Below, piece by piece: positions 5,514 to 56,200 of a stretch of 64,000 bases of DNA; the stretch's first letter is position 1; each line of letters opens with the position of its first letter. The DNA lies in the NCBI RefSeq assembly GCF_019059575.1, contig NW_024881989.1:1-64000 (forward strand). Reading direction: 5' to 3'. This DNA is from Amphibalanus amphitrite. Its lineage: Eukaryota > Arthropoda > Thecostraca > Balanomorpha > Balanidae. Position numbers and translations under genes: made by a program. The notes beneath the pieces were generated by a model, which saw only the letters and a list, made by a program, of their open reading frames with translations, had not been told where the DNA came from and did not search any database.

Positions 5514-5515
5514 TA

Positions 5516-6508
5516 CAGGGTGTCCCAAAAATAATGTCACACCTGTCCAGCGTCAATTGCATGAAAATAACAAACATGAGAGGTGCGCTTTTCTTACATA
5601 TGTATCCCACCTTCTCCCTGATACGGGCAAGGATATGTTCCGGAACATCAGACATCAACATGTCCAGCTTCTGTGGACTGATCTTGGACCAGACAGATCG
5701 AACGTTCCTGGTCAGCGTGCCTTCAGATTATTCTGGTGCCATTTTGATCACCTCTTACCGGGCGATCGCCCTAAGATTTTCTATCGGCGACAGGTCGGGA
5801 CTATTTCCCGGTCATTTGTCCTTCTCCCAGAATGCTGGGAAGTTCGATCTGCACCAGTCCTGCGTCGTTCTAGCTCGATGAGCCGGGACCCCGACCTGTT
5901 GAAAGATGGCCCTGGACATGTTCAGCAGAGGTTTTCGGCTGGAAACGTGACTTGGTGGGCTTCAGCTTTAGAAGCAGCCTCCAGTACCGATGAATTGTCA
6001 ACTTGGAGACTGGATGACTGTTAGCAATCAGCCCCCTTGCCAGATTCCTTGTGGATAAGCCCGTATTTAGCTCCGCAGTTCGCGATGTCGAGCTGCACTA
6101 CCCGGCTGGCGGAAGTCTTCCTGCCGCGACCTAGCTTGTTCCCAGACGTCTATCCGCTTCTGTCGCAAGACAACCAGCGCCAAATCGTGCGGCAACTCGT
6201 GCCCAGTGCCTCGGCTACCAGGCCGTGGGTCATTCCGCCGCCAACCATGTCGACTGCCCCGCTGCGGGACGATTTGCTCTGCAGTTTTGCCATCCTGGAC
6301 ACATGGTCCGCGCGCGCTGGGTACTGCCCCGAAAATGACCTCCGTCCACCCCTTGACCGGTCAGGGTCACAAAAATTTGAAGGTCACGTGACTAGAATGT
6401 AGCCAATATGGTCTGGGAGCCAGTAACGGCGAAATTATATTGATATTGCGCCGTAGAAGGCAAAATAAAGGTTGTGAGAGGGTGTGACATTAATTTTGGG
6501 ACACCCTG
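5516..6508 (-). mobile_element. Degenerate mariner-like transposon
   Basis: TA dinucleotides flank the unit at 5514-5515 and 6509-6510. The terminal inverted repeats are about 28 bp, beginning CAGGGTGTCCCAAAA, with two mismatches between the ends. At 993 bp it is shorter than a full mariner (about 1.3 kb). The interior encodes a broken transposase on the minus strand. TA duplication, TIRs and transposase similarity agree. Confidence 0.85.
5560..6293 (-). pseudogene. Mariner-type transposase, internally deleted with stops
   Basis: Read from the ATG at 6293, the N-terminal part keeps a helix-turn-helix-like stretch (GLVAEALGTSCRTIWRWL). Further down, near 5895-5800, the sequence reads AHRARTTQDW, FPAFWEKDK and NSPDLSPIENL, the region around the last two catalytic acidic residues of the Tc1/mariner DDE/D fold. 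Several in-frame stops lie between and after these blocks and the middle is missing, so the product cannot be functional. The C-terminal tail ends near 5560 with PEHILARIREKVGY. Confidence 0.75.
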
Positions 6509-6510
6509 TA

Positions 6511-8039: not shown

Positions 8040-8248
8040 TCTGTCCGCGGGTCCCCAACAGACTACAGACTCTCCAGTCTGTCCGCGGGTCCCCATCAGA
8101 CTCTCCAGTCTGTCCGTGGTCTGCTCACAGACTGTCCAGTCTGTCCGCGGGCTGCTCACAGACTGTACAGTCTGTCCGTGATCTGCTCACAGACTGTCCA
8201 GTCTGTCCGCGGGCTGCTCACAGACTGTCCAGTCTGTCCGCGGTCCGC
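8040..8248. repeat. Minisatellite immediately 3' of the SELENBP1 stop codon
   Basis: About six copies of a 31-33 bp unit (minus-strand core CAGTCTGTGAGCAG, then CCGCGGACAGACTGG) occur here. The array abuts the stop: the coding end CAGTCTCTGAGCGG is an obvious variant of the unit core, so the unit includes a copy of the stop-codon region. It is presumably 3' UTR. Confidence 0.75.
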
Positions 8249-8318
8249 TCAGAGACTGCACGGCTTTGTTGCCTCGGGAGCCAGCCAGATGTCGGAGGTG
8301 CAGTCTCCGCCCGGGTAC
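8249..8318 (-). CDS. SELENBP1: SELENBP1 exon 9, terminal (residues 452-474 and stop)
   Basis: Acceptor GGCAG at 8323-8319. The product completes Arg and reads [18 protein letters not shown] to SL and TGA at 8251-8249. The family C-terminus normally ends at or just after SDIW, so this tail of about ten extra residues is slightly long. Confidence 0.93.
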
Positions 8319-11300
8319 CTGCCGCCACATATCAGTCACATATCAGTCATGCATCAATCACATCAGTCACAAATCAGTCACACATCAGTGGTACCTACTG
8401 CCTGCGGTCACACATCAGTCACGCATCAGTCACATCAGTTACATCAGTCACACACCAGTCACACATCAGTCACACATCACCGGGTAAATTCAGCCACACA
8501 TCAGTCACATCACATCAGTCACATTAGCGGTTACCTGCAGTCACACATCAGTCATACATCAGTGGGTACCTGCGGTCTCACCTCAATCATATCAAATCAC
8601 ACCTGTCACACATCTCGTGGGCCAGTGATTTTGCTGATTGCTGACCTCATCTCGTGGGCCAGTGATCAGAAGGTAGGTACTGACCTTATTTCGTGGGCCA
8701 GTGATCAGTACTGACCTCATCTCGTTGGTCAGTGATCAGTAATGACCATCTCGTGGGCCAGTGATCAGAAGGTAGGTACCGACCTCATCTCGTGGGCCAG
8801 TGATCAGAAGGTACTGACCTCATCTCGTGGAGCAATGGTCAGAAGGTACTGACCTCATCTCGTGGGCCAGTGGTCAGAAGGTGGGTACTGGCCTCAACTC
8901 GTGGGCCAGTGATCAGAAGGTGGGTACTGGCCTCAACTCGTGGGCCAGTGATCAGAAGGTAGGTACCGACCTCATCTCGTGGGTCACTGATCAGAAGGTA
9001 CTGACCTCCTCTCGTGAGGCAGTACTGACCTCATCTCGTGGGCCAGTGATCAGAAGGTACTGACCTCATCTCGTGGGCCAGTGATCAGTACTGACCTCAT
9101 CTCGTGGGCCAGCACGGGGCCGTCCGGCTCGTCGTGAAAGTCCACCAGGAAGTCCTTGTTGAGGCTCAGTCCGCCGCGCTCCGTGTCAACGTCAATCTGC
9201 AGCATCATGGTGCCGCGCCTGTTGTCCACAGAGCACGCATCAGCAGTCAGCACACAGCAGCACACAGCAGCACACATCAGCACACAATAGCACACAACAG
9301 CAAATATCAGCAACATTAGCACACAACAGCACACATGCTACCGCGCCTGTCCGGGGAGCACTTTTCAGAGAACGCCTCACCATCAGCGGGTAAAATTGTC
9401 TGATCTGGGGACACTTACTTCACCATCTGTGGGTAGAATTGTTTGTCCCGGGAAGGGGGTACACTTACTTTACCATCTGTGGGTAGAATTGTTTGTCCCG
9501 GGGAGGGGGTACACTTACTTCACCATCTGGGGGTAGAATTGTTTGTCCCGGGGAGGGGGTTCCCTTACTTCACCATCTGCGGGTAGAACTGTTTGTCCCA
9601 GGGTGGACACTTCCTTCACCATCTGCGGGTACAACTGTTTGTTCCAGGGGGTACCTACACTTACTTCACTATCTGCGGGTACAACGGTTTGTCCCAGGGG
9701 GTACCTACACTTACTTAACCATCTGCGGGTAGAATTATTTGTCCCGAGGGACACTTACTTCATCATCTGCGGGTAGAACTGTTTGTACCGGGGGCTCCCT
9801 TACTTCACCATCTGCGGGTAGAACTGTTTGTCCCGGGGTGGACACTTACTTCACCATCTGCGGGTAGAACTGTTTGTCCCAGGGCGAGTAGAGCGAGTCG
9901 GTGACGTAGAGCCGACGGCCGTCCAGGCTGAGCTGCAGCATCTGCGGCGCGCCCTCGATCCGGCGGCCCTTGATATAGACGGGCTCCGGCTGCGCCTGCG
10001 GGAGGACACACCGGCCGTCAGCGTACTCACACCAGAGACACACCGACCCGTCAGCGTACTCACACCAGAGACACACCGGCCCGTCAGCGTACTCACACCA
10101 GAGACACACCGGCCCGTCAGCGTACTCACACCGGCCCGTCAGCGTACTCACACCAGAGACACAACGGCCCGTCAGCGTACACCAGAGGCACACCGGCCCG
10201 TCAGCGTACTCACACCAGAGACACACCGGCCCGTCAGCGTACTCACACCAGAGACACACCGGCCCGTCAGCGTACTCACACCAGAGACACACCGGCCCGT
10301 CAGCGTACTCACACCAGAGACACACCGGCCCGTCAGCGTACTCACGCCAGAGACACACCGGCCCGTCAGCGCACTCACACCGGCCCGTCAGCGTACTCAC
10401 ACCAGAGACACACCGGCCCGTCAGCGTACACCAGAGGCACACCGGCCCGTCAGCGTACTCACACCAGAGACACACCGGCCCGTCAGCGTACTCACACCAG
10501 AGATACACCGACCCGTCAGCGTACTCACACCAGAGACACACCGGCCCGTCAGTGTACTCACACCAGAGACACACCGGCCCGTCAGCGTACTCACACCAGA
10601 GACACACCGGCCCGTCAGCGTACTCACACCAGAGACACACCGGCCCGTCAGCGTACTCACGCCAGAGACACACCAGCCCGTCAGCGTACTCACACCAGAG
10701 ACACACCGGCCCGTCAGCGTACTCACACCAGAGACACACCGGCCGTCAGCGTACTCACACCGGCCCGTCAGCGTACTCACAACAGAGACACGCCGGCCCG
10801 TCAGCGTACTCACACCGGCCCGTCAGCGTACTCACACCAGAGACACACCGGCCGTCAGCGTACTCACACCAGAGACACACCGGCCGTCAGCGTACTCACA
10901 CCAGAGACACACCGGCCGTCAGCGTACTCACACCAGAGACACACCGGCCGTCAGCGTACTCACACCAGAGACACACCGGCCCGTCAGCGTACTCACACCG
11001 GCCCGTCAGCGTACTCACACCAGAGACACACCGGCCGTCAGCGTACTCACACCAGAGACACACCGGCCGTCAGCGTACTCACACCAGAGACACACCGGCC
11101 GTCAGCGTACTCACACCAGAGACACACCGGCCCGTCAGCGTACTCACACCGGCCCGTCAGCGTACTCACACCGGCACGTCAGCGTACTCACATCGGCCCG
11201 TCAGCGTACTCACACCAGAGACACACCGGCCGTCAGCGTACTCACAACAGAGACACGCCGGCCCGTCAGCGTACTCACACGACACACACCGGCCCGTCAG

Positions 11301-14300
11301 CGTACTCACACCAGAGACACACCGGCCCGTCAGCGTACACCAGAGACCGAGCGGGCATCGCGCCTCAGTCGGGCATCCAACAGAGTAGGCTTACGTGGAC
11401 CGCATGACTCACAGAGCATGGAACAGGCGCGCAGTTTACGTCGGAGGATAACCAGCACGTTTGCCATATAGCTGCTCTGGCAAACAAAAAGGCGTGACAG
11501 CTTGGATAAGCTCTGGGCTCTCGTGGCCTCAACTTGACCTCATCATGACCTCACCGTGACCTCGTTATGACCTCGCCGTGACCCCGCTGTGACCTCACCA
11601 TGAGCTCTGTGTCGCGGGTGACCTCACCGTGAGCTCGGTGTCTCGGGTGGCCTCACCGTGAGCTCGGTGTCGCGGGTGACCTCACCGTGAGCTCGGTATC
11701 TCGGGTGACGGTGACCGGGCCGCCCCGGACGATGCTGCCGCCCAGGAACACCTGGCCCACCAGGCGCGGCCGGCGCGGGTCGCTGACGTCGTACTGCCGC
11801 ACGTCGCCGTGCGCCCAGTTGGAGAAGTACAGGTACCGGTCGTCCAGCGACAGCAGGATGTCCGTCATCACACCTGCGGCGGCCGGCCGTCAGAGCGGTC
11901 AGCGGTCAGTCACCAGAGGTCAGAGAGGTCAGAGTGGTCAGTGATCAGCGGTCAGATGAGTCACCGGTTATCAGTCAGCGGTCAGTGGTCAGCCGTCAGC
12001 GGTCAGTGCAGCGGTCAGACGGTCAGTGGCAAGACGGTCATTGGTCAGTGGCAAGACGGTCATTGGTCAGTGGTCAGCGATCAGATGGGTCAGCACTCAT
12101 CAGTCAGTGGTCAGCGGTCTGAGCGGTCAGTGGTTAGTGTCACAGGTCAGCGGTCAGCGGTGATCGGTCAGCGGTCAGCGGTGAGCGGTCAGCGGTCAGA
12201 CGATCAGCGTTCAGATGGTCAGTGGTCAGTGATCAGCGGTCAGAGGTCAGCCGTCAGAGTTCAAACGGTCAGCGGTCAGACGGTCAGTGGTCAGACGGTC
12301 AGTGGTCAGCCATCAGAGGTCAAACGGTCAGTGATCAGCGGTCTGAGCGGTCAGCGGTCAGTGTCACAGGTGAGCGGTCAGGCGGGCCGCTCGGACTCAC
12401 TCACCGGGCATCTCTGGCAGCATCCAGCCGGTGACGCTCTTGGGCGGCACCTGGATGACCTTTTCGGCGGCCCAGCTGCCGTCGGGCTCCAGGTAGAAGC
12501 GGTACACGACCGCGTTCAGCGCGCAGCCGACGAACCCCTGCGGCTGCTTCGGGTCGTGCAGAAACCGGATCTCCAGCGGCATCACACCCTCCGCGCCCAG
12601 GTCAATCCGCTGCCGGGGGGGGGGGAGCACAGGTCAGTCCGCTGCCAGGGGGGGGGGGGGGCGGGCACAGGTCAGTCCGCTGCCGGGGGAGCACAGGTCA
12701 ATCCGCTGCGGGGGCAGGCAGGCGGCTCCGCCGAGTGATATATTAATGCATTGTACCTGAAACGGTAACTGTGTCACCCGGCGGCTGGTTCCGTCCGGTC
12801 AGTATGCAGTACCTGCAGGAGCCGGCGGCTGGTCCCGCCCCGTCAGAGCACAGTACCTGCAGGAGCCGGCGGCTGGCCCCGTCAGTACACAGTACCCGCA
12901 GGAGCCGGCGGCTGGTCCCGTCCGTCAGTACACAGTACCTGCAGGAGACGGCGGCTGGTCCAGCCCCGTCAGTACACAGTACCTGCAGGAGCCGGCGGCT
13001 GGTCCCGTCAGTATACAGTACCTGCAGGAGCCGGCGGCTGGTCCCGTCCGTCAGTAGACAGTACCTGCAGGAGCCGGCGGCTGGTCCCGTCCCGTCAGTA
13101 CACAGTACCTGCAGGAGCCGGCGGCTGGTCCCGTCAGTACACAGTACCTGCAGGAGCCGGCGGCTGGTCCAGCCCCGTCAGTATACAGTACCTGCAGGAG
13201 ACGGCGGCTGGTCCCGTCCCGTCAGTACACAGTACCTGCAGGAGCCGGCGGCCGGTCCCGTCAGTGCACGGTACCTGCAGGAGCCGGCGGCTGGTCCCGT
13301 CCCGTCAGTATACAGTACCTGCAGGAGCCGGCGGCTGGTCCCGTCAGTACACGGTACCTGCAGGAGCCGGCGGCTGGTCCCGTCAGTATACATTACATTA
13401 CAGTACCTGCAGGAGCCGGCGCTGGTCCCGTCAGTACACAGTGCCTGCAGGAGCCGGCGCTGGTCCCGTCAGTACACAGTACCTGCAGGAGCCGGCGGCT
13501 GGTCCCGTCAGTACACGGTACCTGCAGGAGCCGGCGGCTGGTCCCGCCCCGTCAGTATGCAGTACCTGCAGGAGCCGGCGGCTGGTCCAGCCCCGTCAGT
13601 ACACAGTACCTGCAGGAACCGGCGGCTGGTCCCGTCAGTGTACAGTACCTGCAGGAGCCGGCGGCTGGCCCCGTCAGTACACAGTACCTGCAGGAGCCGG
13701 CGGCTGGTCCCGTCAGTACACAGTACCTGCAGGAGCCGGCGGCTGGTCCCGTCAGTACACAGTACCTGCAGGAGCCGGCGGCTGGTCCCGCCCCGTCAGT
13801 ACACAGTACCTGCAGGAGCCGGCGGCTGGTCCAGCCCCAGACGTTGAGGTGCGTGCCGTACCGGCCGGCGGCCAGGTCGGCGGGGTCCAGGCCGCGGCTG
13901 AACGCCGCCGGCGCGCCCCACTCAGTCGAGATCAGCACGTCAAAGTACGGCTGGTACCAGAAGTCGTAGCCGAACGGAGCCGCCGCGTCCCCGGCCGGCC
14001 ACGTCCCTGCCGAGCAGACACAACGTGACACCTGGTTAATCCGCGGTCCTGTTTCACCGGTCTGAGCCGGCCAAAACAGACCGCTAGTACAGCGTGAGCC
14101 CAGCCGCAGTCGTGACTCGGCCGGCCCTCCTGGTCCGATTGTCGTGGGACCTCGCAGGGCGCGGCCGCTCTCTCTGTGAGCCGCCTGATGGGATCGGGGG
14201 CATCACAGCTGTGTGGCGGGCACTGCAGTGGGCTGACCGTCCCCCACGGAGCACAGCCCGCGGGCCGCGGCCGTCCGGTGAGCCCAGGGCCGGGACCCCG

Positions 14301-17300
14301 CACCTCCCGTCAGATACCCTCCGTCCGGTACCCGGAGACCGGCCGGCCCCGTGTCCCCGCCAGGACGCTGCCCTGTGACCGTCCCCACGTCAGCACCGGC
14401 TGCAGGCCGCGCGGCGCGCCGGCGCACCTTTGAGTTTGAACGTCTTGCCGTCGAGCAGGATGAAGGTGCCGCGCCCCTGGCCGTTCCGATCACCCATGGT
14501 CGAGATCATGATGTCGCCGGTGCCCAGGCAGTGCGTGGTGTGCGGCGTGGAGACATTCAGAGCGGCCAGCTCCTCCGGCTCCACCGTCTGACGGTCAGAG
14601 GTCAGAGGTCAGAGGTCAGAGAGCAGAGTGGCTAGCTCCTCCGGCTCCACCGTCTGACGGTCAGAGGTCAGAGGTCAGAGGTCAGAGGTCAGCGCGTCAG
14701 AGGTCAGAGCGGCCAGCTCCTCCGGCTCCACCGTCTGACGGTCAGAGGTCAGAGTTCACAGGTCACAGGTCACAGGTCAGAAGTCAGCGGTCACAGGTCA
14801 CAGGTCAACAATAAGAGGTGACAGTGCAGAGGCCATATGTCAGAGGTCAGAGGTCAGAGGTCGCAGGTCATAAGTCAGCGGTCACAGTCCACAGGTCAGC
14901 GGTCAGAGGTGAAAGGTCGGAGGTTAGAGGTCAGAGGTCAGGGCAGAGGTCGTAGGTCAGAACCATATGTCCGCGGTCAGAGGTCAGTTCCCAGGTCAGA
15001 GGTCAGGTCACAAATCAGGGATCAGAGGTCAGAGATCAGGGCAGAGGTCGTAGCCTCGTAGGTCAGAACCATATGTCCGCGGTCAGAGGTCAGTTCCCAG
15101 GTCAGAGGTCAGGTCACAAATCAGGGATAAGAGGTCAGAGGTCAGGGCAGAGGTCGTAGGTCAGAACCAGATGTCCGCGGTCAGAGGTCAGTTCCCAGGT
15201 CAGAGGTCAGAGGTCAGGTCACAAGTCAGGGGGTCAGAGGTCAGAGATCTGAGGTCAGGGCAGAGGTCAGAACCAGATGTCCGCGGCAGAGGTCAGGTCA
15301 CCTGTCTGCGGTAAGAGGTCAGGTCACAGGTCAGGGGTTAAGAGGCCAGAGGTCAGAGCGGTGCGCCGCGCCGCTGCGCCGTACTCACGGTGAGGAGCGC
15401 CGGCGCGCGCGGCCGGCTGACGTCGGCGATGTAGACGCGGCTGGAGCCGATAGCGGGAAGCACCAGCCGGTCGCGGCGCCGGCTGCAGTCGCCGTGGCAG
15501 CTGGAGCACGCGTTCCAGCCGCTGTGGTGCAGCTCGTCGTTCTTGTGTGGCATCACCAGCCGGTGCACCACCTGCAGCCACCGACACACACTCGGTCACC
15601 CGGAGGGACACCCGGACACCCGGACACTCGGACACTCGGACACCCGGACACTCGGACACTCGCAGTCACGCAAAACTTTGCTGGTATTGATGATCCCAGC
15701 ATTCACTCCCTGATTGAGCCAGAGCTTCGCGGAAAGAGCGAACGTGCTGCCCGTTACGAGAGGAAGCCGATGACACCCAATTTTAAGGTTTAAGGTCATT
15801 GCTTGACCAGGTCAGATCAATGACCCAAAAGTCGGGAAAATCGGGACCGGTTAGAATGTCATTAAGTGTGGCTGCTATGGAGTTTTTAGGGGTGCTGATC
15901 AAGAATATCATGATAGTTTTGATGACAGATGATTTCTCCATTATCTAAGCCGGGTCGGGTCAGGTCAAGACAGGTCAACCAGTAGGGGTCCTTTCGGGTA
16001 TTCGAAGTAGGTGTCAACCGCCTCTGGCAGCTTCGTAACATGTTACGAAGGCCCCAAAGCTACTTCGTAACTGTTAAAATGGCTGCTAATTTCGAATTCA
16101 GCTAACAAACTAGGCTAGAAACTTATAAAACTCGTAAAAGTGAGCCGAGGTCACCAAAGGTCAATGGTCTGACCTGACATTCTCGTGAAATTGACATCCA
16201 CCCTAATGCATGGGGCCAACAACATATCACATGTTTGAACGTTCAGTTTGACCTCAATAACTCCTGACCTAAGATGACCTAAGACTTGAAATTTTGTGTG
16301 AAGGTGTCTTATTGATGCCCGGGAAGGAACTACAAATTTGCCGGGCGGAGTTTTCCTGCTATTCAGGAAAAACCACAGGGGGGGGGGCAAATTGGCCCCT
16401 CCCCAGCGGGACGAGGGTTAACCCGCGCCCGCGGGTGGGCCTCGCAGCGAACCTCGCCATGGCGGGGGGGGGGGTGTTTTTTACTACATCAGGTTATCTC
16501 GAAAAGTAAACAAGCAAGAAACACGCAGTAAAAAGCAATCGATAGTTCGCTATAACATCTTCCAGAAGCATACAGGCGATTTTTTATCAGGTCATCGCTG
16601 AGGTAACTGGAGGTCACCAGAGGTAAAATTTTCGGAATATTGTTCTCGATTTTGAGAACTTCTCACAAATCAGCGCATAAGCTTCGGGAACCAACAAAGC
16701 CACAGCGCTGCGTAAAAGCGATAGCTCCTTCAAAGGTCTCTACATATTGTTCTCAGATTTGACCTAAGATCAACGGTTTGAGTTTTTGCTCCAGAAGGCA
16801 AAAATCTCAAAATTTAACGGTTTTTCACAAAAAGGTGTTTGTATCATAAGTTTTCAGTTCAAGTTTAAGAGAGTTTAGCGTAGTGAGGAAAATCATATTG
16901 ATGATTATGAGCATATTTTTAATTGACCGAATCCTCAATGTAATCTGAATAAAATGACAAATAGCAAAAATTCGGGTATATTCGATCACAGATCTTTGTC
17001 AACCGATACCAGCAGGCGCCACCTGGTATCGGTTAGGTATACCTGGTATAGGTGGCCACCTGGTATAGGTGGCGCCTGCTGGTATCGGTTGACAAAGATC
17101 TGTGATCGAATATACCCGAATTTTTGCTATTTGTCATTTTATTCAGATTACATTGAGGATTCGGTCAATTAAAAATATGCTCATAATTTTCAGTTCAAGC
17201 TTGTATTAGGTACGCTGATTTTACCGGCATCGCGTTTGTCTTGTCAAGACGCGTAGAATGAATTATAAGTTGACCTAAACAAAACTTGAAAACAAATTAT

Positions 17301-20300
17301 TGACCTCAGGTCAAGGTCACTGAAAAGATCATGCTACATATCATTCGATTTGTAATGGTTAATTGAACACATTCATGGCGTTTCCAGCGCTCTAGCATGC
17401 TTCTATCCAAAGTTATTGTCAAAAACGGCTGGGGACGTTTAATGACCTGAGATGACCTCAGGAGCACAGAGCCTCAGGAGGATGACGTCAGGAGCAGGTC
17501 AAGGGTGCAATTTTCCAGTTCAGTATGTCATGTTCACCTGTGTCCTGATGTTTGAGGGTGTTTTCGCCAAAAGAAGAGCATTTCAACTTTCTCCCATTAG
17601 TTAACTTATATCTTATAGGTCATAAATTGAGGTCATGAATTGACCTAATCATAGGTCACCGATATCGAAATTTCGAGATAAACAAATTTTAGGTAGGGGA
17701 GAGTGGGGTAAGATGCCCAGGGTGGGAAAGACGCCCCACCCCCTCTAGCGGCGAAACAAAGAATCGAACCTGGAAATTAATGTTCTTAGCGTAAAGCGGA
17801 AGCCTGCCTTGTTAACTGCACAAAAATTTGCGAAGCTCAGTTGGGCAACGGCTGGCTGATGATTGCATGTTTTTTATTTGCTGCTTTCAAAAAATATTTT
17901 GGTGTCAAAACATTGTAAATATCAAAGAAGTTAAATAATTTTTGCGTCCCTTGCTATAGTCGTGATACATTAGCATGCGTGTACTGTGTCCCAAACGGTT
18001 TGTTTAAGGGTGTCGTTTTATGGCTAACAAATTGTACTGATTTAATGTTACTTCGGTACCTTGGGGTAAGATGCCCCCTGTCCTGATGGGGAAAGACGCC
18101 CCCCTAAATCCGTAGGCTGCCCTTCAAACAGCCCGTCAAATCATTTATTACATACTTGTGATGTAGACAAAAGCCGATCTGGGACTATTGAGAGTCCAGT
18201 ACGGTCGGGTGCTCCCCATGCCGGTCTCTCGGCCCACACAGCGACTTTTTGGGCGGCATCTGACTCTGAGAGCCCTCACGACGGCCTCTGTGGGCCCCAT
18301 TATTGGCTCCAGGACCCCTCACGACATCCTTTGAGGGCTCCCACGTTGGCCCCACGGGCCGCGCTGGCATCGGAGGTCCCCAAGATGGGCTCGAAGGCCC
18401 TCAAGCATCATGAAGACCTATAAGAGCCCCACAGTGGTCTCCGAACGCCACCACGGAGGCTTGTTTGGCCGCGCTGGACTATGATGGCCCTAACGATGAC
18501 CTCTGAAGCCCCTTACGACTACTTTTGAGGGCCCTTATGATGACGTTTGGTGTCTACTGCAGGCTCGAAGGGACTACTGATTCGTTCAGGCGATTCACGT
18601 GCCCATTTATGTCACTTATAGTGCAGGGGGCATCTTTCCCAACGCCAGGGGGCGTCTTTCCCACCCTGTGGGGTAAGATGCCCCCTTTCACTTCTTCAGG
18701 AAAATGCTTAATAGCAAAAAAAGTTATCTTAGTTCAGGCACGAAAGTGTGATATTTTTGGAGAAAAATGATGTCGACTTCCGTTGAAACTCCAAGTTTTT
18801 GCTTTCCCATCGTCATTTTCGAATAATATATGACATAGTAAAACCCTGGGCATCTTTCCCCACTCTCCCCTACTGATTATCTCATGCAATAGCTTGAGTT
18901 TCAAGCTTCAGCGATGTACACTGTAGGAAAACTGAATCACAAAATGTTTTAGAGGCATGGCCACTTACCTTGACCTGGTGACCTGACTTATGTGACCTGG
19001 GGTCAATAATTTTACACACGATGCGAAGTTAATGCATGATAAGCTATACCCTGTTTTGCAGCGCTATTTACGCTATAAAAAAAACTGGCGGGTGAGGTCA
19101 AAAACACCCCCCCCCCCCCACGCAGGCAGTCAAAGAAGTTGTGAAAGCTTGGGACTTCACCACGGAATATATAGTCTACGACATATATTCCGTCGTATTC
19201 CGTCGACATATATTGTCGTAGACTATATATTCCGTGACTTCACTAAACTTCTGTCAATCAGGTTGTAAGCAATTTCTCAAAGCACAATGTTTTGACAACA
19301 TAAAACGCCAAGAACGTATGACGTTATACGGGTCAGTGACCTTACCAAAGGTTGGTAACAGTTTGGTTATTGCATTAAAAATCAGGCAGACCAAATTCAA
19401 GTAAGCATAAATTGCATGTTGTACTCTTTCCGCGACAAGTTCTAGAAACGTACGTAAAAAATGATGTAAACTGCAGCACTGGCTCTTGCTGGAAAACGTC
19501 CAAATGTCATGAGCAATGTATTCTATCCTCAGCTAGAGGTCTGCTATCGCTATATACAAAGTATATAATGTAATTTAATACCACCAGACGCTGGTATTTA
19601 CAGCCCAGGCAGCGCCGAGGCGCAGATCAGATACTGCGTGTCATGCCACTTCGCAACACTGAAGCGCAGCTAGTGAAAAATGTATGCGAGAGCGGACTTT
19701 CGCTCCCATACCTGCTAGTGTCCTTTTTGCCCCGCATGCTTAATAAGCAGTATGTCGGCCGCCTGACATCAGCCCACATGGACGCAGCTCCAACAACGTT
19801 GATGCGTCTGAATGTCAAATAAACAGTTATAGCCAGATATAACCGGTCTTGGTCAGTTAAAACTAGCTATCCTATCAGCGACATAGGCCCATGCGACGAG
19901 CTTGCCGAGATGCCGACTTGATGATAAAGCGGCGTTGGGGTTATCTCGCGGCTCGCGCGGTGAAATTTAAAACAAATGGACACCATGGTACTGCGCTTTT
20001 TCTGTAGGAGTGAGTTTTTGTTGGTAGGTACTAAGTAGGGGAGAGTGGGGCAAATCGGCCACCCTAACGTTTCTCACGATGCCAACGCTTGATTTTTAAA
20101 CTTGGAAAGATTCTTTCTATACCAATGTGATCCCTATTAAGTTGCCTTTTATTTCAACTGCGTTTTATTTCCAAAGGCGTTCACATATGAAAGATATTGA
20201 CAAAATTTTAAACCTATGCATATTGGCCACTTTGCCCCATACCCTGGGGCAAAGCGGCCACCGACGTCTTCTCAAGTCCCGATATGAGAAACAAAATAGT

Positions 20301-26300: not shown

Positions 26301-26923
26301 CATTCGTGGTATTGTTTTTTTTAGTATTGATCTCGCTAGCGTCCTCGCTGATGTAAACAGAGGCAGTTCAGCTGCTGACCGGCCTCAGAGACTGCGGACG
26401 AGAGCGGCGCTGGCCGCCAGGTCGGAGCCGCTGGTGCCGCCGTGTGTGCCGCCCCCGCCCCCGCCGCTGGGAGCTCGTCGCTGCTGGGAGCTCGCCCCCG
26501 CTGCTGGGAGCTCGCCGCTGCTGGGAGCTCACCGCTGGGAGCTCACTGCTGCTGGGAGCTCACTGCTGCTGGGAGCTCGCCGCTGCTGGGAGCTCACCGC
26601 TGCTGGGAGCTCGCCGCTGCTGGGAGCTCGCCACTGCTGGGAGCTCACCGCTGGGAGCTCACTGCTGCTGGGAGCTCGCCCCCGCTGCTGGGAGCTCGCC
26701 GCTGCTGGGAGCTCACCGCTGCTGGGAGCTCGCCGCTGCTGGGAGCTCGCCGCCCGCGCTCGGCGCTCACCTGCTGTTTGTTGAGGTCGACCGTGGCCAG
26801 GTAGTCGTGTCTGCCGGCCGGCGCGATGCACGGCACGTAGATGAGCTCCTCGCGCGGCCCCTTGGTCATGGCGTCGCGCGGGCTGGCGTAGCCGGGCCCC
26901 GTCCTGGCGCCGAACCGAAACAT
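8249..26923 (-). CDS. SELENBP1: Selenium-binding protein 1 / methanethiol oxidase, complete nine-exon gene
   Basis: Joining 26923-26771, 15571-15389, 14587-14428, 14006-13810, 12609-12405, 11873-11686, 9995-9850, 9218-9096 and 8318-8249 gives 1425 nt, i.e. 474 codons plus stop, with every junction in phase and GT/AG borders. Vertebrate SELENBP1 is about 472 aa, so nothing is missing. Family landmarks in order are GPGY and KGPREE (near residues 9-25), HHSGWN and CSSC (73-76), [72 protein letters not shown] and SDIW near the end. In animals the enzyme oxidises methanethiol to formaldehyde, hydrogen sulfide and hydrogen peroxide, in the cytosol. The human selenium-linked Cys57 position appears to be Gln here. 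The 11.2 kb first intron is full of transposons; the other introns are mostly minisatellites. Confidence 0.96.
8320..8610. repeat. CACATCAGT minisatellite in SELENBP1 intron 8, acceptor side
   Basis: Many copies of a 9-11 bp CACATCAGT unit occur here. The words GGTACCTGCGG and GGTTACCTGCAG at about 8385, 8527 and 8567 are copies of the exon 9 acceptor (minus strand CCGCAG then GTACC). Confidence 0.7.
8620..9095. repeat. Exon 8 donor-derived minisatellite in SELENBP1 intron 8
   Basis: About 12 copies of a roughly 38 bp unit occur here. On the minus strand each contains CTGGCCCACGAGATGAG then GTCAGTAC, which is exactly the end of exon 8 plus its donor. The array starts at the real junction (9096). 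Confidence 0.9.
9096..9218 (-). CDS. SELENBP1: SELENBP1 exon 8 (residues 411-451, two bases of 452)
   Basis: Starts GCGCGGC after AACAG and encodes [22 protein letters not shown] and VLAHEM. Ends AG before donor GTCAGT, phase 2. Confidence 0.94.
9235..9335. repeat. CAGCACACA short tandem repeat in SELENBP1 intron 7
   Basis: Irregular tandem CAGCACACA/CAACAGCACA units lie upstream of exon 8 on the minus strand. Confidence 0.7.
9365..9849. repeat. Exon 7 donor-derived minisatellite in SELENBP1 intron 7
   Basis: About ten units of 42-54 bp occur here. On the minus strand each includes GACAAACAGTTCTACCCGCA, GATGGTGAAGTAAGTG or close variants, which is the last codons of exon 7 (DKQFYPQMV) plus the donor. 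Several copies still encode [10 protein letters not shown]-like peptides. Confidence 0.92.
9850..9995 (-). CDS. SELENBP1: SELENBP1 exon 7 (residues 363-410, two bases of 411)
   Basis: Encodes [29 protein letters not shown] and [10 protein letters not shown]. Ends GTG AA before donor GTAAGT, phase 2. About ten copies of its 3' end and donor follow in the intron. Confidence 0.94.
10003..11345. repeat. 1.3 kb minisatellite filling SELENBP1 intron 6
   Basis: Roughly 40 copies of a 30-33 bp unit (CGTACTCACACCAGAGACAC then ACCGGCCCGTCAG) occur here. On the transcribed minus strand every unit contains GTGTGAGTACGC, a near-perfect 5' splice-site word. It is not an obvious copy of a neighbouring exon edge, unlike the other arrays. 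Long open frames here on both strands are artefacts of the unit length. Confidence 0.9.
11590..11685. repeat. 29 bp tandem copies of the exon 6 donor
   Basis: Units starting near 11593, 11622 and 11651 repeat the last 23 bases of exon 6 plus GTGAGG; the true site starts at 11680. A TGACCTC-rich stretch (11530-11595) lies alongside. Confidence 0.85.
11686..11873 (-). CDS. SELENBP1: SELENBP1 exon 6 (residues 300-362)
   Basis: Encodes [25 protein letters not shown] and [12 protein letters not shown]. It ends GAG CTC ACG before GTGAGG, phase 0. Three further copies of this donor follow at 29 bp spacing, so the choice of donor rests on joining in frame to AQPEP of exon 7. Confidence 0.92.
11885..12385. 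repeat. GGTCAGNG minisatellite in SELENBP1 intron 5
   Basis: Some 50 units of 8-10 bp of GGTCAGCGGTCAGTG type fill nearly the whole intron between exons 5 and 6. Confidence 0.85.
12405..12609 (-). CDS. SELENBP1: SELENBP1 exon 5 (residues 232-299, first base of 300)
   Basis: Starts CGG ATT GAC after GGCAG. It encodes [26 protein letters not shown] and LPEMPG. Phase 1 end before GTGAGT. Confidence 0.95.
12612..12720. repeat. Exon 5 acceptor-derived tandem copies
   Basis: Three additional copies of an approximately 40 bp unit, AGGTCARTCCGCTGCC followed by a G-run and AGCAC, lie upstream of the true acceptor on the minus strand. The unit is the first bases of exon 5, the AG and a polypyrimidine tract of up to 14 C on the transcribed strand. 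Confidence 0.85.
12775..13809. repeat. Exon 4 donor-derived minisatellite filling SELENBP1 intron 4
   Basis: About 25 copies of a 39-44 bp unit occur here. Minus strand: GACCAGCCGCCGGCTCCTG, CAG then GTACTGTGTACTGAC, i.e. the last residues of exon 4 (TSRRLLQ) with its GTACTG donor. Units of 39 bp keep the frame, so translation through the array yields repeated [12 protein letters not shown] peptides. Confidence 0.93.
13810..14006 (-). CDS. SELENBP1: SELENBP1 exon 4 (residues 166-231)
   Basis: Starts GGACGTGG after CCGGCAG-type acceptor sequence. The product has [14 protein letters not shown] and [12 protein letters not shown]. It ends CTG CAG before donor GTACTG, phase 0. The last 27 bases are the seed of the 25-copy array that follows. 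Confidence 0.94.
14428..14587 (-). CDS. SELENBP1: SELENBP1 exon 3 (residues 113-165, first base of 166)
   Basis: Starts ACG GTG GAG CCG after CGTCAG, and contains [16 protein letters not shown] and FILLDGKTF. It ends in phase 1 with a GTGCGC donor, a weak consensus but one that restores the Gly codon with exon 4. Confidence 0.93.
14588..14750. repeat. Exon 3 acceptor-derived tandem copies
   Basis: Two extra copies of the exon 3 start (minus strand CAG then ACGGTGGAGCCGGAGGAGCT) at about 14628-14662 and 14710-14745, separated by AGGTCAG repeats. Both keep the AG and could act as decoy acceptors. Confidence 0.85.
14750..15355. repeat. AGGTCAG array in SELENBP1 intron 2
   Basis: Dozens of AGGTCAGAGGTCAG words occur here, plus a higher-order unit of about 110 bp (with ACCATATGTCCGCGGTC or ACCAGATGTCCGCGG) present three to four times. 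AGGTCA repeated with one intervening base is the DR1 arrangement recognised by RXR/HNF4-type nuclear receptors; regulatory use here is only a possibility. Confidence 0.8.
15389..15571 (-). CDS. SELENBP1: SELENBP1 exon 2 (residues 52-112)
   Basis: Acceptor CTGCAG, 183 nt, donor GTGAGT, phase 0 at both ends. It carries HHSGWN and the CSSC dithiol motif (residues 73-76). Confidence 0.95.
15590..15662. repeat. CGGACACTC short tandem repeat
   Basis: Seven or eight units of 9-10 bp lie just upstream of the exon 2 acceptor in intron 1. Confidence 0.8.
15715..16421 (-). mobile_element. TTAA element, family B copy
   Basis: A clear terminus lies at 16408-16421 (GGACGAGGGTTAA) with a G-run/C-run hairpin at 16380-16405. 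The interior from about 15720 matches 48937-49732 and, inverted, 29989-30730. The far end is ragged and lacks a visible TTAA. A second TTAACCCGCGCCC end starts at the same TTAA and runs to the right with its own G-run at about 16460. Confidence 0.65.
16904..17187. repeat. Large palindrome, about 130 bp arms
   Basis: The two arms are near-perfect reverse complements, from GATTATGAGC (16904) to GCTCATAATT (17187). The short asymmetric centre (about 17025-17070) has GGTATAGGTGG repeats. No coding capacity. It lies in SELENBP1 intron 1. Confidence 0.9.
17694..18872. mobile_element. TA-flanked TIR element with GGGGAGAGTGGGG ends, copy 1
   Basis: Ends are TAGGGGAGAGTGGGG and CCCCACTCTCCCCTA. Subterminal words GGGTAAGATGCCCC and GGGAAAGACGCCCC recur at about 17705, 18060 and 18670. 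No ORF of note. The same ends occur at 20036-20929 and 51079-52316. Confidence 0.8.
19150..19232. repeat. AT-rich hairpin
   Basis: ACGGAATATATAGTCTACGAC is mirrored by GTCGTAGACTATATATTCCG, with CATATATTCCGTCG words between: a hairpin with about 25 bp arms. Confidence 0.8.
20036..20929. mobile_element. TA-flanked TIR element with GGGGAGAGTGGGG ends, copy 2
   Basis: Same ends as copy 1 with one change on the right (CCCACCCTCCCCTA). Interior words GGGGCAAAGCGGCCAC and GTGGCCACTTTGCCCC are scattered as inverted pairs near both ends. No transposase. Confidence 0.78.
20930..22078. other. Intron 1 sequence with two tandem arrays
   Basis: 21167-21380 has five units of about 45 bp (AATGCTGCTGCCRCTCGCCT, then CCCGTGTGGCTACATCCGTCT). 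21770-22010 has about 20 units of GACAGATACCG/GCCAGATACCG type. Nothing else recognisable is seen. Confidence 0.7.
22079..25433. mobile_element. 3.35 kb TIR transposon with palindromic TTGAGC motifs, superfamily undetermined
   Basis: The ends are CAGTCCCACGCACAAGGGGG and its reverse complement, extending to about 30 bp, flanked by AGTT on both sides (22075-22078 and 25434-25437), a likely 4 bp duplication. Near both ends GCTCAAWWWWTTGAGC palindromes recur (about 22103, 22120, 22165; about 25067, 25100, 25140, 25180, 25379, 25395). They look like transposase binding sites or deliberately self-pairing termini. The interior is AT-rich with two short minus-strand open stretches (about 23089-22904 and 22907-22689) that I cannot assign, and a GC-rich island at 23880-24410 that looks like a broken gene. 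Confidence 0.7.
23800..24380 (+). pseudogene. Broken chitin-binding (peritrophin-type) gene fragment
   Basis: Pieces in different frames resemble chitin-binding type 2 spacing: [20 protein letters not shown] near 23920-23980, [17 protein letters not shown] near 24000-24050, [15 protein letters not shown] near 24155, [10 protein letters not shown] near 24215, and [13 protein letters not shown] near 24270-24310, running to a TGA at about 24350. At least three frameshifts separate them and several expected cysteines are lost. It is GC-rich inside an AT-rich transposon, so it may be a captured or host fragment. Assignment is tentative. Confidence 0.4.
25790..25842 (-). ncRNA. Candidate hammerhead ribozyme motif, left arm of palindrome
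   Basis: Mirror copy of the motif at 25971-26020. Confidence 0.5.
25971..26020 (+). ncRNA. Candidate hammerhead ribozyme motif, right arm of palindrome
   Basis: CTGACGA (25981-25987), stem II GGTT/AACC with loop, GAAA (26003-26006), minimal stem III ACGT, cleavage C at 26010 (triplet GTC). Stem I pairs TTCTATT (25974-25980) with AGTAAAA (26011-26017) with one mismatch and one wobble, then continues. All invariant core positions are present. Confidence 0.6.
26460..26770. repeat. 17 bp minisatellite at the SELENBP1 exon 1 donor
   Basis: About 17 units of GGGAGCTCRCCGCTGCT occur here. On the minus strand units read CAGCAGCGGTGAGCTCC, resembling the exon 1 junction CAGCAG then GTGAGCGCC. The array begins about 20 bp inside intron 1. 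Confidence 0.85.
26771..26923 (-). CDS. SELENBP1: SELENBP1 exon 1 (residues 1-51)
   Basis: ATG at 26923-26921; the product begins [12 protein letters not shown], with family motifs KGPREE and DYLATVDLN. It ends CAG before donor GTGAGC (26770-26765), phase 0. The frame is open upstream, but the family N-terminus fits this methionine and no upstream coding exon is needed. Confidence 0.9.
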
Positions 26924-47200: not shown

Positions 47201-50200
47201 GGTCGCCGTGGTGCGCTCCAAGCGGCGCGTGGCCGGCGCCGGCGGCGCGCCCCACCAGCCCGGCGCGGCCGCGGCAGGGTCTGGTGGACCAGCTGCGGGG
47301 CGCCCCCAGGGATCGGAACAGGACAGTGGCAGCGCGCCGACGCCCCGGCAACCACCGGCAACGCGGACAGGCGACAAAGTCCGGCTGTTTGTGATATCCA
47401 AGAAAGCTGACGCCCCGGCCGTGCCGTGTCCGATGAGGGCCAGCCAGTCTGGACCACTCACAAACACAAACCCTAACACCAGCCGCCCGGCCGTCCAGGA
47501 GCCCTCGGCTGCCAGACCCGAGCGCCCCGCGCTTCTGAGCGTGCCGAAAAGAGCACCACCCGCCCACCAGTCGCCAAACCGAGCCCGCACTACAGCACTG
47601 GAGCCGTCCTCCCAGTCTGCGTCTTCTGAGGCGCCTCCTTCACCTGCCAGCTCTGCGAGCCAGCGATCTGGGGACTTCAGCAGCACGGCGCCCCGGCCCG
47701 GCCCACCCGGCGGCTCCGCGGCCCGACCCGGCCCACCCGGCGGCTCCGCGCCCTGGCCCGGACCACCCGGCGGCTCCGCGCCCCGGCCCGGCCCACCCGG
47801 CGGCTCCGCGCCCCGGCTCGGCCCACCCGGCGGCGGCCGGCCGGCGCCCGCCCGCCGGCCCGCCGGCCGGGTCGACCTGGTCGCCACGGTCTCACTGTCG
47901 GTGTTCGTAGTGGTGCTGTTCGTCACCATCTTCCCGTACGTGGTGAGCCTGGGCGTCATCAACGCCCGCGCCGAGTGCGTGCTGAGCGCGGCGCAGCGCG
48001 TGCTCGTCTCGGTGGTGGTGGTGGCCAGCATGGGCGCGGCGGCCGTCGGCGGCCCGCTGGCCACCGTCCTCTTCAGCGCCGACTTCCGGCGGGCGTTCGG
48101 CGTCCTCTGCCGGCGGCTCCGACGGGCGCTGACCGGGCGCTGACCGGGCGTTCGGCGTCCTCTGCCGGCGGGTGCGAGGGACGCTGACCGGACGCTGACC
48201 GGTGACACTCCATATTCAGTGGACCGGGGTGACACCCCTGCAGTCGACCGGACGGGGGTTCTCTAATGGATTACCTCGGGCTTTTCAAAAAGATGTCGCT
48301 GCTAAAATAATTATTCTTCCATGCCTAGCTTGTCAAAAAAGGAATAAATTATTTAATTCATATCTCCTAGTCCTAGTCGTATTTGTTGCTGTCGCGTCTC
48401 GCGGTGTGTCCTCAATGTATACGTATACAGGTACACTGTACCTACATCAGTGTGTCAGTGTACACTGCGGAGGCTGCACCAATTCCGCAGGCGCTGGAGT
48501 TTGGTGTTGATGGAGTCCGGAGTTTGGACACCGTGTGTCTGAGAGGCACCCACCTCACCGTGAAGTGACGACTAGGAATACACGCACAACGCACCTGTCC
48601 GTCAGTAGGTCTGCGTGTCTGTCAATGACGTCTGGTAACGGGAGGCCGGCCGCCCAGAGCGGGCACATGGCAACTGGCTGCCTCTGAGCCTGTTTGTATT
48701 TCTGGGTGTCATCACATCAGTCATCACCGACCCGACCACCCACCTGGAGGCGGTGTCAGGGGCGGTGGAGAAGGCAGGGTGCGAGGCCGTCCCCCGAACA
48801 GCGGGCAGGGTGCGAGGTCGTCCTCCCGGACAGCGGGCAGGGTGCGGGACCGTCCTCCGGACAGCGGGCAGGCGAGTGGGGCCGTCCTCCGGACAGCGGG
48901 CAGGGGAGTGGGGCCATCCTCGCCCCTGAACGAGCTAGAGCTTCGCGGAAAAACGAGCGTGTTGCCCGTGACGAGAGAAAACCGATGATATGCAATTTTT
49001 AGGTCCTAGGTCATTGGTTGACCTTCCAGGTCCGGTCAATGACCCAAAGTCGGGAAAATCGGGACCTGTTAGAAAGCCGTAAAGTGTGGCTGCTATAGGG
49101 TTTTCGGGGTGCTGATCACGAATATCAGGCTAGCTTTCATTACAGATGATGTCTCCATGCAATTAGGCCAGGTCGGGTCAGGTCAGGTCAGGTCAAACAG
49201 TAGGGGTCCTGCCAGGTATTCGTAGTAGGTGTCAACAGCCTCTGACAGCTTTGTAACATGTTACGAAGGGACCAAAACTACTTCGTAGATGTTCCTATGG
49301 TTGCTAAATTCGAACTCAGCTCCAAAAACTGGCCTAGAAACACGTAAAACTCGAAAAAGTGAACCCTGGTCATCAAAGGTCAATGACCTGACCTGACCTT
49401 CAGGTGACCTTGATACTCTCCCTGATGCATGGGACCACCATCATTTCACATGTTTCAACGCTTGAAACCACGAAAAGACTGCAAACGCGCGGCTAATGCG
49501 AGCCGACACCTACGCCGAATCGCGATTCCGGCCAAATATGGTCTCGAAAAGTAGGTCACAGCCAGGTCAAAGGTCATTTGGGTCAGGGGCATGCAATTTT
49601 GAAGGTAGGTGTAAAATTGATCAACTCGAGGGAACTGAAAGCTTTGTCACGATCAGCCGCTTTTTACGCGAGTTATTCGCGAAAAACCGAGGGGGCCGTT
49701 CAACCCCCCCCCCCTATACGGGCGAGGGTTAAATGTTCAGAGGCGGTGTAAAATTGATGAACTCGACTTCGGGGGTAGGTAGGTACCTACTAAACGTTTC
49801 GTCGCGATCGGCCGCTTTTTGCGCGATGTATTCTCGAAAAACCGAGGGTCTGGAATTGGATATAATGCATACCTATGATAGATCTGGCACATGGGTGGAG
49901 AACCTACCCCGGCCACCCCGGCCGTGGCCGGGGTAACTTTCAGCCAACCCCGGCGCGGCCGGGGTAACTTTTTCCACTTTTGTTAATCCTGAAAGCTGTC
50001 TCCATACGAAAACAAACTGCCATCTATAAAAGCGTCTCTCATTATTCTTATCTACCTTGAAAAGTTCTTGAAAATTTACTTTATTTTCATTTTGGAGCTT
50101 CTATGTTTTTAACCCGCGAGTTGCTGGGGGGGGGGCGTTAAACGCCCCCACTTTTTTCGCCGGGCCATAGCATAAAAACGGCGCGCCGCAGGCGCGCCAA

Positions 50201-53200: not shown

Positions 53201-56200
53201 GAAGAATCGGTTCAAAAATGTGGGAGTTATTCAAAATTTTATGACGTCACGACACACAATTTTTTTGAAAAATGACTTTTTTGGAAGTTCTAGACCTTGT
53301 ACGGAAATAAGAATAGCACCGTTCGATTCGCCGTGAAAAACTGCATCAGATAGACACCTTTTTAGGCCTTAACAACCAACTTCAAAATTTGACCTCACTT
53401 GACCTGACCTTGACCTGACCTCGACCTGAAATTCATCCAGAGGTGGTCCATATCACTTATTGAGTGTGCCTATTGAATTCTATGAGTAAAATGACCCATA
53501 AAACATGTGTCGCACATGCCCTTTTCTATATTTTGTTTTTTGGTGACCTGACCTGACCTGACCTGACCTTGACCTTGACCTCTGAATGATATTGTATGCA
53601 ACGAATATTGTCTTGGTAGCCTAAGAACACGTTTTGGGCGATCAGTCTCAGTCCATGACTCCATTCTTCGGCAACTACGGTGTAAGGCCGATACTGTAGA
53701 AACTTGCAATTTGTACCCTTGACCTGACCTTGACCTTGACCTCAAACTTTAAATTAAGTACATGTTTTTAGTAGTTCGTGATGAGAGCTTTCGATTGGCG
53801 TTTGAATTTTCCAAATCGGACCATTAGTTCGCGAGATAACAGGGGGGTAAAATTTACCCCCCCCCAGCCCCGCGCGTTCGGCTGGAGACCCCAGCCCCGC
53901 GCGGGTTAAGGCTCGGTCGCGAATAATATTTCAGGTGCGAGCTCAAATCAATAGAGGGTCATGCAAAACGGTCAAATTTGACATTTTGTTTTGTGTGGGA
54001 AGGTTGCAACTTCCACGGAATAAGCTTTGCAAAGGGCATGATGGCATTTTTAGCACGATCATCCAGCAAATTTGACCTGATGACCTGACCTAGCACTAGG
54101 TGACATGCGTCCGAAATTTTAAGGCGTGTTGCAAAATTGTTGTTACAATTACGAAATCTTCCGCACCTGCGTGCAGCAGATTTCCCTAAAAACGTACAAA
54201 CGACAGACATCCATTATTCTATGCCACAGAATAGGGGTTTGTTGATAACCGTTGACAAATAGGTATTTGAGCATCATCGTCTTTCTGACTTTCGGTCGCC
54301 GGCCGGGGTAACTTTTTCAAACATTCTCCACCCGTGATCTGGCATGTGGATAGCCACCTGAGTGGATATGACCTATGACATTTCAACAGAGGTCAGCCTC
54401 GATCAATCAGAAAACACTTTCGTGAATCGTAAGGAAAGACATGTTAAATTGTGAATATTCCAGTGTTTATGATTATGTCATAAATATGCAACCACAGAAA
54501 CCTCATTGACCATTTATTTACCTATGATGTCACAGGAAGGTCAGATAAGGTCAAATTGTACCGGTTTACAACGAAAAACAATTGTTTACGTAAAAATGAC
54601 TTTACTCACGTAAAGGATCATATTCAGTCAGGAATAGGCTAATTAGCATCATTAATATTACTCCTGACTGATTTCAAGCACAAATACCTACCGAAAATAT
54701 TGTGACGTCATAAAAACAGTCGCTACTATTTCAGTCATTCAAATGGCTATATGTCTGGCAGTTTTAGAGATATTTTGTTAATTTTTGGTAAGTGTAAGGC
54801 CTGTGTAAAGGCGTTCTCTGACATATAGGTATTCCGTTTTTTAACAATTCAAAATTTAGATTTCTTGGGATATTTTTGAAATTTGAATTTAGAAATCCCT
54901 AGATCTAGTGACTTTTTATTTCGGAAATTTTGAAATAGCCATTTTGTTTGCATGTTTTTTATACAAACGGACCAATTTTTGAGTCGCTTAGTTGAAACTC
55001 TGATTTTCTGCGATTTTTCTCCGTGAATAACTTTTCGACGAAAAATCGTCGAACATGACCTCAGTTTGACCTCTATAGCTCGTGAACCGAGATGACCTGG
55101 GACCTAATTTTTTAAGGAGTTGTGTAAAATTGATATCTGGAGAGGTACTGAAAAGTTTAAGTCGAAATTCGCAGCCGTTCCTGAGTTATCTACGAAAAAC
55201 CACAGGGTGTGACCCTTTGCCCCCAGTCCCCCCCCCCCCCAACGGGTCACGGGTTAATGTGAAGACAAGTGAGACAACATATGAAAAAAAGAATGAAAGA
55301 AAACAAAATCACTGCAGGTTTGTGCGGAAAACCGACGGCAGCTCGACATTTGTGACTGCGCACATGGCCTGCAGTGCCGGGTGGCCGTCTGACCGGGCGG
55401 GCCGTCTGTTCCGCCGTCTGTTCCGCTGTCTGATCGGGCCGGGCCGTCTGTTCCGCCGTCTGTTCCGCCGTCTGACCGGGCGGCGGGCCGTCTGTTCCGC
55501 CGTCTGTTCCGCTGTCTGACCGGGCGGCGGGCCGTCTGTTCCGCCATCTGTTCCGCTGTCTGACCGGGCCGGGCCGTCTGTTCCGCCGTCTGTTCCGCTG
55601 TCTGACCGGGCCGGGCCGTCTGTTCCGCTGTCTGACCGGGGTGGGCCGTCTGTTCCGCCGTCTGTTCCGCTGTCTGACCGGGCGGCGGGCCGTCTGTTCC
55701 GCTGTCTGACCGGGCGGGGCCGTCTGTTCCGCCGTCTGACCGGGCCGGGCCGTCTGTTCCGCCGTCTGTTCCGCTGTCTGACCGGGCGGCGGGCCGTCTG
55801 TTCCGCTGTCTGACCGGGCGGCGGGCCGTCTGTTCCGCCATCTGTTCCGCTGTCTGACCGGGCGGCGGGCCGTCTGTTCCGCCGTCTGTTCCGCTGTCTG
55901 ACCGGGCGGCGGGCCGTCTGTTCCGCCATCTGTTCCGCTGTCTGACCGGGCCGGGCCGTCTGTTCCGCCGTCTGCTCCGCTGTCTGACCGGGCCGGGCCG
56001 TCTGTTCCGCTGTCTGACCGGGCGGCGTGCCGTCTGTTCCGCTGTCTGACCGCGGCGGGCCGTCTGTTCCGCTGTCTGTTCCGCTGTCTGACCGGGCGGG
56101 GCCGTCTGTTCCGCCGTCTGACCGGGCGGCGGGCCGTCTGTTCCGCTGTCTGACCGGGCGGCGGGCCGTCTGTTCCGCAGCCCAACTCGTACGCGGCCAC

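Follow-up and report, generated by a model that had tools for sequence, protein, structure and literature searches.

Minisatellites that span exon-intron borders in a SELENBP1 gene of the arthropod Amphibalanus amphitrite

The stretch of DNA analyzed here (the window) comprises the first 64,000 nucleotides of contig NW_024881989.1 of Amphibalanus amphitrite (assembly GCF_019059575.1, positions 1 to 64,000 of the forward strand). A SELENBP1 gene lies on its minus strand, and at 6 of the 16 splice borders of this gene the adjoining intron carries 2 to 24 extra copies of the exon edge together with its splice site.

The SELENBP1 gene and its tandem arrays

In order to build the gene model, the 5'-most donor and the 3'-most acceptor were taken at each intron. 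Nine exons with GT/AG borders were thereby spliced into one open reading frame of 474 amino acids: exon 1 (26771..26923, with the start codon and the donor CAGCAG|gtgagc), exon 2 (15389..15571; SBP56 match, E=1.4e-22), exon 3 (14428..14587), exon 4 (13810..14006; donor CTGCAG|gtactg), exon 5 (12405..12609), exon 6 (11686..11873), exon 7 (9850..9995; donor GGTGAA|gtaagt), exon 8 (9096..9218; donor GATGAG|gtcagt), and exon 9 with the stop codon (8249..8318). The initial annotation had given the range 8249-15571, which holds exons 9 to 2 and from which exon 1 (26923-26771), also covered by the PF05694 match, lies 11.2 kb away.

The product carries a full-length SBP56 domain (PF05694, E=3.1e-199, positions 2-453 of 453), which places it in the SELENBP1 family, and it aligns along the structure of the archaeal protein 2ECE (E=4.8e-94). 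None of its residues is drawn from beyond a first donor or before a last acceptor. Relative to 2ECE, the product is about 5 residues short at the joint of exons 1 and 2, and a very small extra exon may be hidden in the 11-kb intron 1 (15572-26770). Around the joint of exons 6 and 7 it has about 17 extra residues, which are encoded in exon sequence upstream of the first donor and downstream of the last acceptor. Family and DNA searches covered a genome of 807.55 Mb in 2644 contigs; the SBP56 family search returned eight matches, all at this single locus, and no second SELENBP1 haplotype was found in these searches.

Arrays were located by using Tandem Repeats Finder (TRF) and were present in seven of the eight introns. 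They make up 85-97% of each of introns 2, 4, 5, 6, 7, and 8 and 10% of intron 1, and intron 3 (421 bp) has no array. Copies of each splice border in the adjoining intron were then counted using a 20-nt border word (12 exon and 8 intron bases at donors, 8 intron and 12 exon bases at acceptors) with at most 4 mismatches. Extra copies were found for the donors of exon 4 (24), exon 8 (12), exon 7 (9), and exon 6 (5, of which 3 are full-length units) and for the acceptors of exon 5 (3) and exon 3 (2). The remaining 10 of the 16 borders had no extra copy of the border word. The initial annotation, which had given approximately 25, 3, 10, and 12 copies for exons 4, 6, 7, and 8, thus holds for exons 3 to 8. 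Introns shuffled in two-base blocks (50 shuffles each) gave a mean of 0.00 copies at every border. Shorter words gave the same picture: 16-mers from exon edges occurred on average 2.60 times in the non-coding DNA alongside (162 words), compared with 0.10 times for interior 16-mers (755 words; rotation P=0.013).

The unit consensus of each array was additionally aligned to the last or first 20 bases of the adjoining exon, with every third interior 20-mer as the control (268 words). Six arrays, those at the donors of exons 4, 6, 7, and 8 and at the acceptors of exons 3 and 5, scored above all 268 control words, with a small margin for exon 5 (score 12, best control 11). Exons 1 and 9 had also been named as seeds, and for these the claim failed: 113 of the 268 interior words scored as well as exon 1 against its neighboring 17-bp array, and 112 (81-bp unit) or 39 (11-bp unit) did so for the exon 9 acceptor. 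Both exons were therefore rejected as seeds, their likeness being within chance.

All six seeded arrays were recovered by TRF, the border word, and the consensus test. At exon 4, the array (12778..13837) repeats the exon tail and donor with a period of 38-49 bp, mostly 39 or 44. The exon 6 array (11589..11709) consists of three extra 29-bp units followed by shorter repeats of the donor core, the exon 7 array (9407..9884) repeats about 31 nt of exon with the donor, and the exon 8 array occupies 8611..9112. On the acceptor side, the exon 5 array (12598..12717) repeats a C-rich tract, the AG, and 12 nt of exon, and the exon 3 copies (14588..14745) contain the acceptor and about 30 nt of exon; they adjoin a TGACCTC heptamer array that fills most of intron 2 (to 15358). 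A DNA search of the genome with the exon 4 unit found only this locus, the search skipping very common words; with that limit, a dispersed element was rejected as the source of the unit.

Further arrays on the same strand lack a clear exon seed. The 17-bp array (26461..26753, about 17 copies) begins about 17 nt inside intron 1, and a GCTGACC heptamer array without an exon seed in the consensus test fills most of intron 5 (11894..12381). An array of about 43 copies of a 33-bp unit runs through intron 6 up to the acceptor tract of exon 7 (10005..11338), and 27 of the 268 control words were as good a match to it as the exon edge. The 11-bp array adjoins the exon 9 acceptor (8326..8563). In the 3' flank, a 31-bp array (8065..8258) has the stop codon within its first unit and extends 10 nt into the coding end at 8249; 26 of the 268 interior words scored as well against it.

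Repeats are concentrated in this part of the contig. The TRF-masked share was 85% for SELENBP1 introns 2-8, 23% for the whole window, 83% for the 8 kb that directly follow it, and 6.4% for one 8-kb stretch in mid-contig, compared with 3.7% for 34.7 kb of introns of CCT genes; within the window, the repeat share correlates with GC content (rho 0.56). Just past the window (contig positions 64001-72000), about 60 copies of a 105-bp unit fill 6.3 kb and reach the end of the fetched stretch.

Decoy splice sites within the arrays

The real splice sites of SELENBP1 sit amid decoys that carry coding bases and a GT or AG, as had been proposed at the outset. GT is retained in 23/24 extra copies at exon 4, 8/9 at exon 7, and 10/12 at exon 8. 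Splice sites were scored by using a generic matrix, with GT terms included for the donor arrays and excluded for the ladder of sites in intron 4. A total of 31 of the 45 decoy donors matched or exceeded the score of the real donor (19/24, 5/9, and 7/12 for exons 4, 7, and 8). Since most decoys equal the true donor in score, the two are hardly distinguishable by their local sequence, and the gene offers a natural test of how splice sites are chosen among decoys, including choice by position (first donor, last acceptor).

Intron 4 is rich in decoys of both types because its unit carries CAG|GTACTG. Scores no more than 0.5 bit below those of the real pair are reached by 25 decoy donors and 24 decoy acceptors in this intron, compared with medians of 0 and 0.5 in CCT introns. 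Such a ladder of AG|GT sites might be functional, being spliced stepwise or regulating output by competition, in the manner of UBC-like dual-specific AG|GT arrays. According to one study (PMC10809524), an AG|GT site can function as either type of splice site, and introns with such sites are overrepresented in genes with tandem repeats. The bar for intron 4 decoys is low, however, because the real donor is weak (0.8 bits without GT), and none of the AG|GT sites of this intron exceeds 2 bits in both roles.

Sequence variation among the units bears on the same question. Departures from the unit consensus in the exon 4, 7, and 8 arrays were counted at 48/1011 exon bases, 4/90 GT bases, 8/180 bases at +3 to +6, and 31/288 bases in the rest of the intron part. 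Donor positions thus show less variation than the remaining bases of the intron part, which a functional role could explain, but they are as variable as the exon-derived bases, for which no role in a decoy is known. Taken together, a function for the decoys appears very improbable. The splice motif has not been purged from the units and is kept no better than the exon-derived bases, and the suggestion that selection favors intron filler that keeps splice signals received no clear support. Given that all three classes are less variable than the remaining intron bases, some constraint or re-copying may nevertheless act on the decoys.

Border duplications in other genes and the origin of the arrays

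Duplications over splice borders also occur in another gene of the window, a putative two-exon gene on the plus strand (56181..57970) supported by its coding score. Its 1.48-kb intron (56373-57852) has a donor-side array with 31 copies of a 16-nt border word; on the acceptor side stand 12 upstream TTTC(A/G)G units, of which the 20-nt border word matched 1 (at most 4 mismatches) or 4 (at most 6). The predicted product contains a DM4/DM12-like stretch, with Pfam matches to DM4_12 (E=0.18) and TIL_2 (E=0.15) that both fall below the cut-off.

A rhodopsin-type G protein-coupled receptor (GPCR) reading frame on the plus strand (46185-48140; 7tm_1, E=1.5e-11) contains a 30-bp array in frame (47688-47834), which encodes repeats of a motif rich in proline and glycine, and its stop codon is spanned by a 55-bp tandem duplication (48090..48202; TRF). 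Duplications are therefore not confined to splice sites and occur also where the protein tolerates them. No second GPCR haplotype was found in a search of the genome, which gave only weaker partial matches elsewhere.

Genes elsewhere in the genome were surveyed for the same pattern, starting with 17 regions of nine CCT genes, six of them on two haplotype-like contigs; matches on contigs C233, C689, C335, and C1157 were left out. Both borders of 58 introns were set by an automatic rule, by which one start (region L052 at 5947) was probably a decoy taken as real. Haplotype pairs were counted apart unless merged, so the totals of 58 and 116 include entries that are not independent. At least one intron copy of the border word was found at 0/58 donors and 6/58 acceptors. 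Two or more copies occurred at 2/116 borders (one border on two contigs), compared with 6/16 in SELENBP1 (P=3e-5). A scan for tandem duplications in these regions found 7 across borders, 7 inside introns (34.7 kb, a dispersed 20-bp array in region L053 being scored as one interior event), 3 in exons (19.0 kb), and 19 in unannotated DNA (83.9 kb).

Six stretches of three ALDH gene pairs, which cover 8 of the 12 ALDH matches, yielded one acceptor duplicated on one contig, one duplication inside an exon, and flank arrays in another pair. The same scan of three stretches with myosin genes found no tandem duplication. The pattern is thus more than an accident of one gene: border duplications recur in the second window gene and in CCT and ALDH genes.

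Copy numbers differ between paired contigs. One CCT acceptor has 3 extra copies on C1029 and 2 on C1931, another has 1 on C481 and 0 on C222, and the ALDH acceptor duplication is present once on C436 and absent from C1110. Near-equal matches suggest that the paired contigs represent two haplotypes; if so, copies present on one contig and absent from the other are being born or lost now, and the duplication process looks current. Duplications found on one contig of a pair could make it possible to trace in populations how arrays, and perhaps introns, are born.

The SELENBP1 arrays are probably mirage minisatellites, of the kind known from amphioxus, that arose from short tandem duplications recurring in a hotspot of high GC content, were filtered by coding function, and then expanded. 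In such a hotspot, slippage or repair would often generate duplications of about 30-70 bp. Those inside an exon would usually break the protein and be lost, and those within an intron or over a border would keep the outermost site (5'-most donor, 3'-most acceptor), give the same mRNA, and be able to persist. Border-crossing duplications would thus survive because the outermost splice site still yields the same protein, and the intact 474-aa protein model supports the use of these sites in the predicted transcript. Once two copies were present, unequal exchange and gene conversion could expand and homogenize the array, with the splice motif as a presumably neutral passenger.

How far chance placement plus this coding filter can account for the borders was assessed with a self-compiled list of 11 arrays from introns 2-8, to which neither intron 1 nor the 11/22-bp repeats in intron 6 contributed. 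The result depends on the ancestral intron length, with P ranging from 0.26 to 0.0008. If ancestral introns were 100 bp, 4.6 of the 11 arrays would be expected at borders and 6 were seen (P=0.26); residual intron lengths gave 3.8 expected (P=0.12). Chance alone, in which some arrays of a repeat-rich region happen to touch exons, would accordingly need ancestral introns of about 100 bp, but the array-free intron 3 measures 421 bp and most CCT introns exceed 300 bp, and ancestral introns of 200 bp bring P to 0.02. As a complete account, chance placement is highly unlikely; it is part of the best explanation more than a full rival to it.

Several results count against recurrent duplication under a coding filter as a sufficient account. 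With ancestral introns of about 400 bp, chance placement plus the filter underpredicts the SELENBP1 border arrays (P=0.0008). In the CCT scan, 7/14 intron duplications crossed a border (P=0.0007), or 5/12 with haplotypes merged (P=0.0115), where 12.5% was expected from a mean intron length of 598 bp and a uniform copy length of 40 bp. Within the decoys, exon-derived bases are less variable than the remaining bases of the intron part (P=0.0004), a gap that the ungapped alignment and the choice of units by border word may inflate; this would be unexpected under simple neutral homogenization, and re-copying from a constrained exon might predict it.

These numbers hint at a true preference of duplications for borders without settling it. 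Splice-junction DNA might itself be a preferred site of tandem duplication, through its GC step, the C-rich acceptor tract, or pausing or repair, and borders would then be birthplaces of arrays beyond what the coding filter explains, with introns growing outward from their own splice sites and decoys made continually genome-wide. The CCT border share fits such a preference, as do the 6/7 SELENBP1 arrays in introns 2-8 with units of at least 25 bp that cross a border (P=0.027, residual intron lengths). C-rich tracts also occur in the units at three duplicated CCT and ALDH acceptors.

The CCT excess is nevertheless open to another explanation. Border pairs stay detectable longer because one copy is held constant by selection, and this detection bias may account for the excess: with border copies about twice as detectable, the expected share rises to 22.3% and P to 0.021 (7/14) and 0.107 (5/12). 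The 12.5% expectation also rests on the assumption of 40-bp copies throughout. Moreover, the CCT border-word events were all at acceptors, whereas four donors and two acceptors are seeded in SELENBP1, so no single border feature fits both. Duplications per kb were alike in CCT exons and unannotated DNA and in intron interiors, and the ALDH and myosin scans also count against a border preference, with one border event, one exon event, and flank arrays in the former and no duplication in the latter.

Slippage or R-loop formation at G-rich borders, which the initial annotation had offered as a mechanism, was not supported. The coding-strand G-skew was near zero or negative in five seeded arrays (exon 4, +0.02; exon 5, -0.30; exon 6, -0.06; exon 7, -0.06; exon 8, -0.08) and -0.25 for the exon 3 copies, measured jointly with the adjoining intron 2 array. 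Apart from the near-zero value of exon 4, positive skew was found only in arrays not clearly seeded, namely the 33-bp array (+0.31) and the 3' flank array (+0.15). A preference for borders as such is therefore considered doubtful, and recurrent duplication with a coding filter remains the preferred reading.

Related systems and remaining features of the window

Repeats that span exon-intron borders are already known from amphioxus, and the SELENBP1 case is an unusually dense one. Amphioxus mirages are tandem repeats over a border, on either side, with units of about 10-160 bp; many copies carry splice signals, and copy number differs between haplotypes (PMC3087553, PMC3902484). The examples in the accessible parts of these two papers are Adh3, the globins BflGb6 and BflGb9, and PGBD5, with one border affected in each of the two globin genes and both 5' and 3' sites in PGBD5. 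SELENBP1 units likewise hold exon edge plus intron with the splice site, and many keep the GT. Undisturbed splicing, a further mirage trait, has its predicted counterpart in the intact SELENBP1 model. Copy-number instability was seen here in two CCT genes and one ALDH gene between haplotype-like contigs, SELENBP1 itself being represented by a single locus. Unlike the amphioxus cases described in those parts, a single gene has 6/16 affected borders here, with as many as 24 extra copies at a border, and tandem repeats make up 85% of seven introns (2-8).

The host also differs, being an arthropod and not a cephalochordate. At least 150 matches to the Chitin_bind_4 domain (R&R cuticle proteins) were found in the genome (150 scored of 705 candidates), a number that we take to mark an arthropod. 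With an arthropod host, the range of mirages is wider than the cephalochordates and extends to this phylum. Among the literature matches listed, in which subscription journals were thinly covered, no report of mirages in an arthropod was found, and the words "splice" and "exon-intron" do not occur in the accessible part of a Daphnia tandem-repeat study (PMC3152781).

Two other systems are comparable in part. In human segmental duplications, minisatellites over exon-intron borders can change splicing and create introns (PMC2812944). SELENBP1 shares the border-spanning minisatellites; the human case, as far as its accessible text goes, compared recent paralogues with RNA, and SELENBP1 is one locus studied through its DNA. 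In the Rogers model, illustrated by a potato RdRp gene in the accessible part of PMC4974935, introns are gained by tandem duplication of AGGT segments. Splice signals are likewise duplicated between copies in SELENBP1, but unlike in those cases it is existing introns that grow, with no new intron position shown.

The rest of the window yielded few assignments. No Rfam match at the gathering score and no tRNA were found in it, and none of seven other open reading frames had a Pfam match at E up to 0.1. An array of the 20-bp unit GGGGCACCACAGGCCTGTCA stands at 43476-43944 of the window, and the same unit occurs in a CCT intron on another contig (L053, 2969-3628); its presence on two contigs makes it look like part of a dispersed element. 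The stretch 5510-6510 is bounded by GGGTGTCCCAAAAATAAT and its inverted match and resembles a mariner-like element. Two signal-peptide-like first exons on the plus strand (797-943 and about 41118-41280) lie about 40 kb apart and have the motif LPFIxYYxVxxEPY in common, and in both a short array stands just upstream of the start codon.

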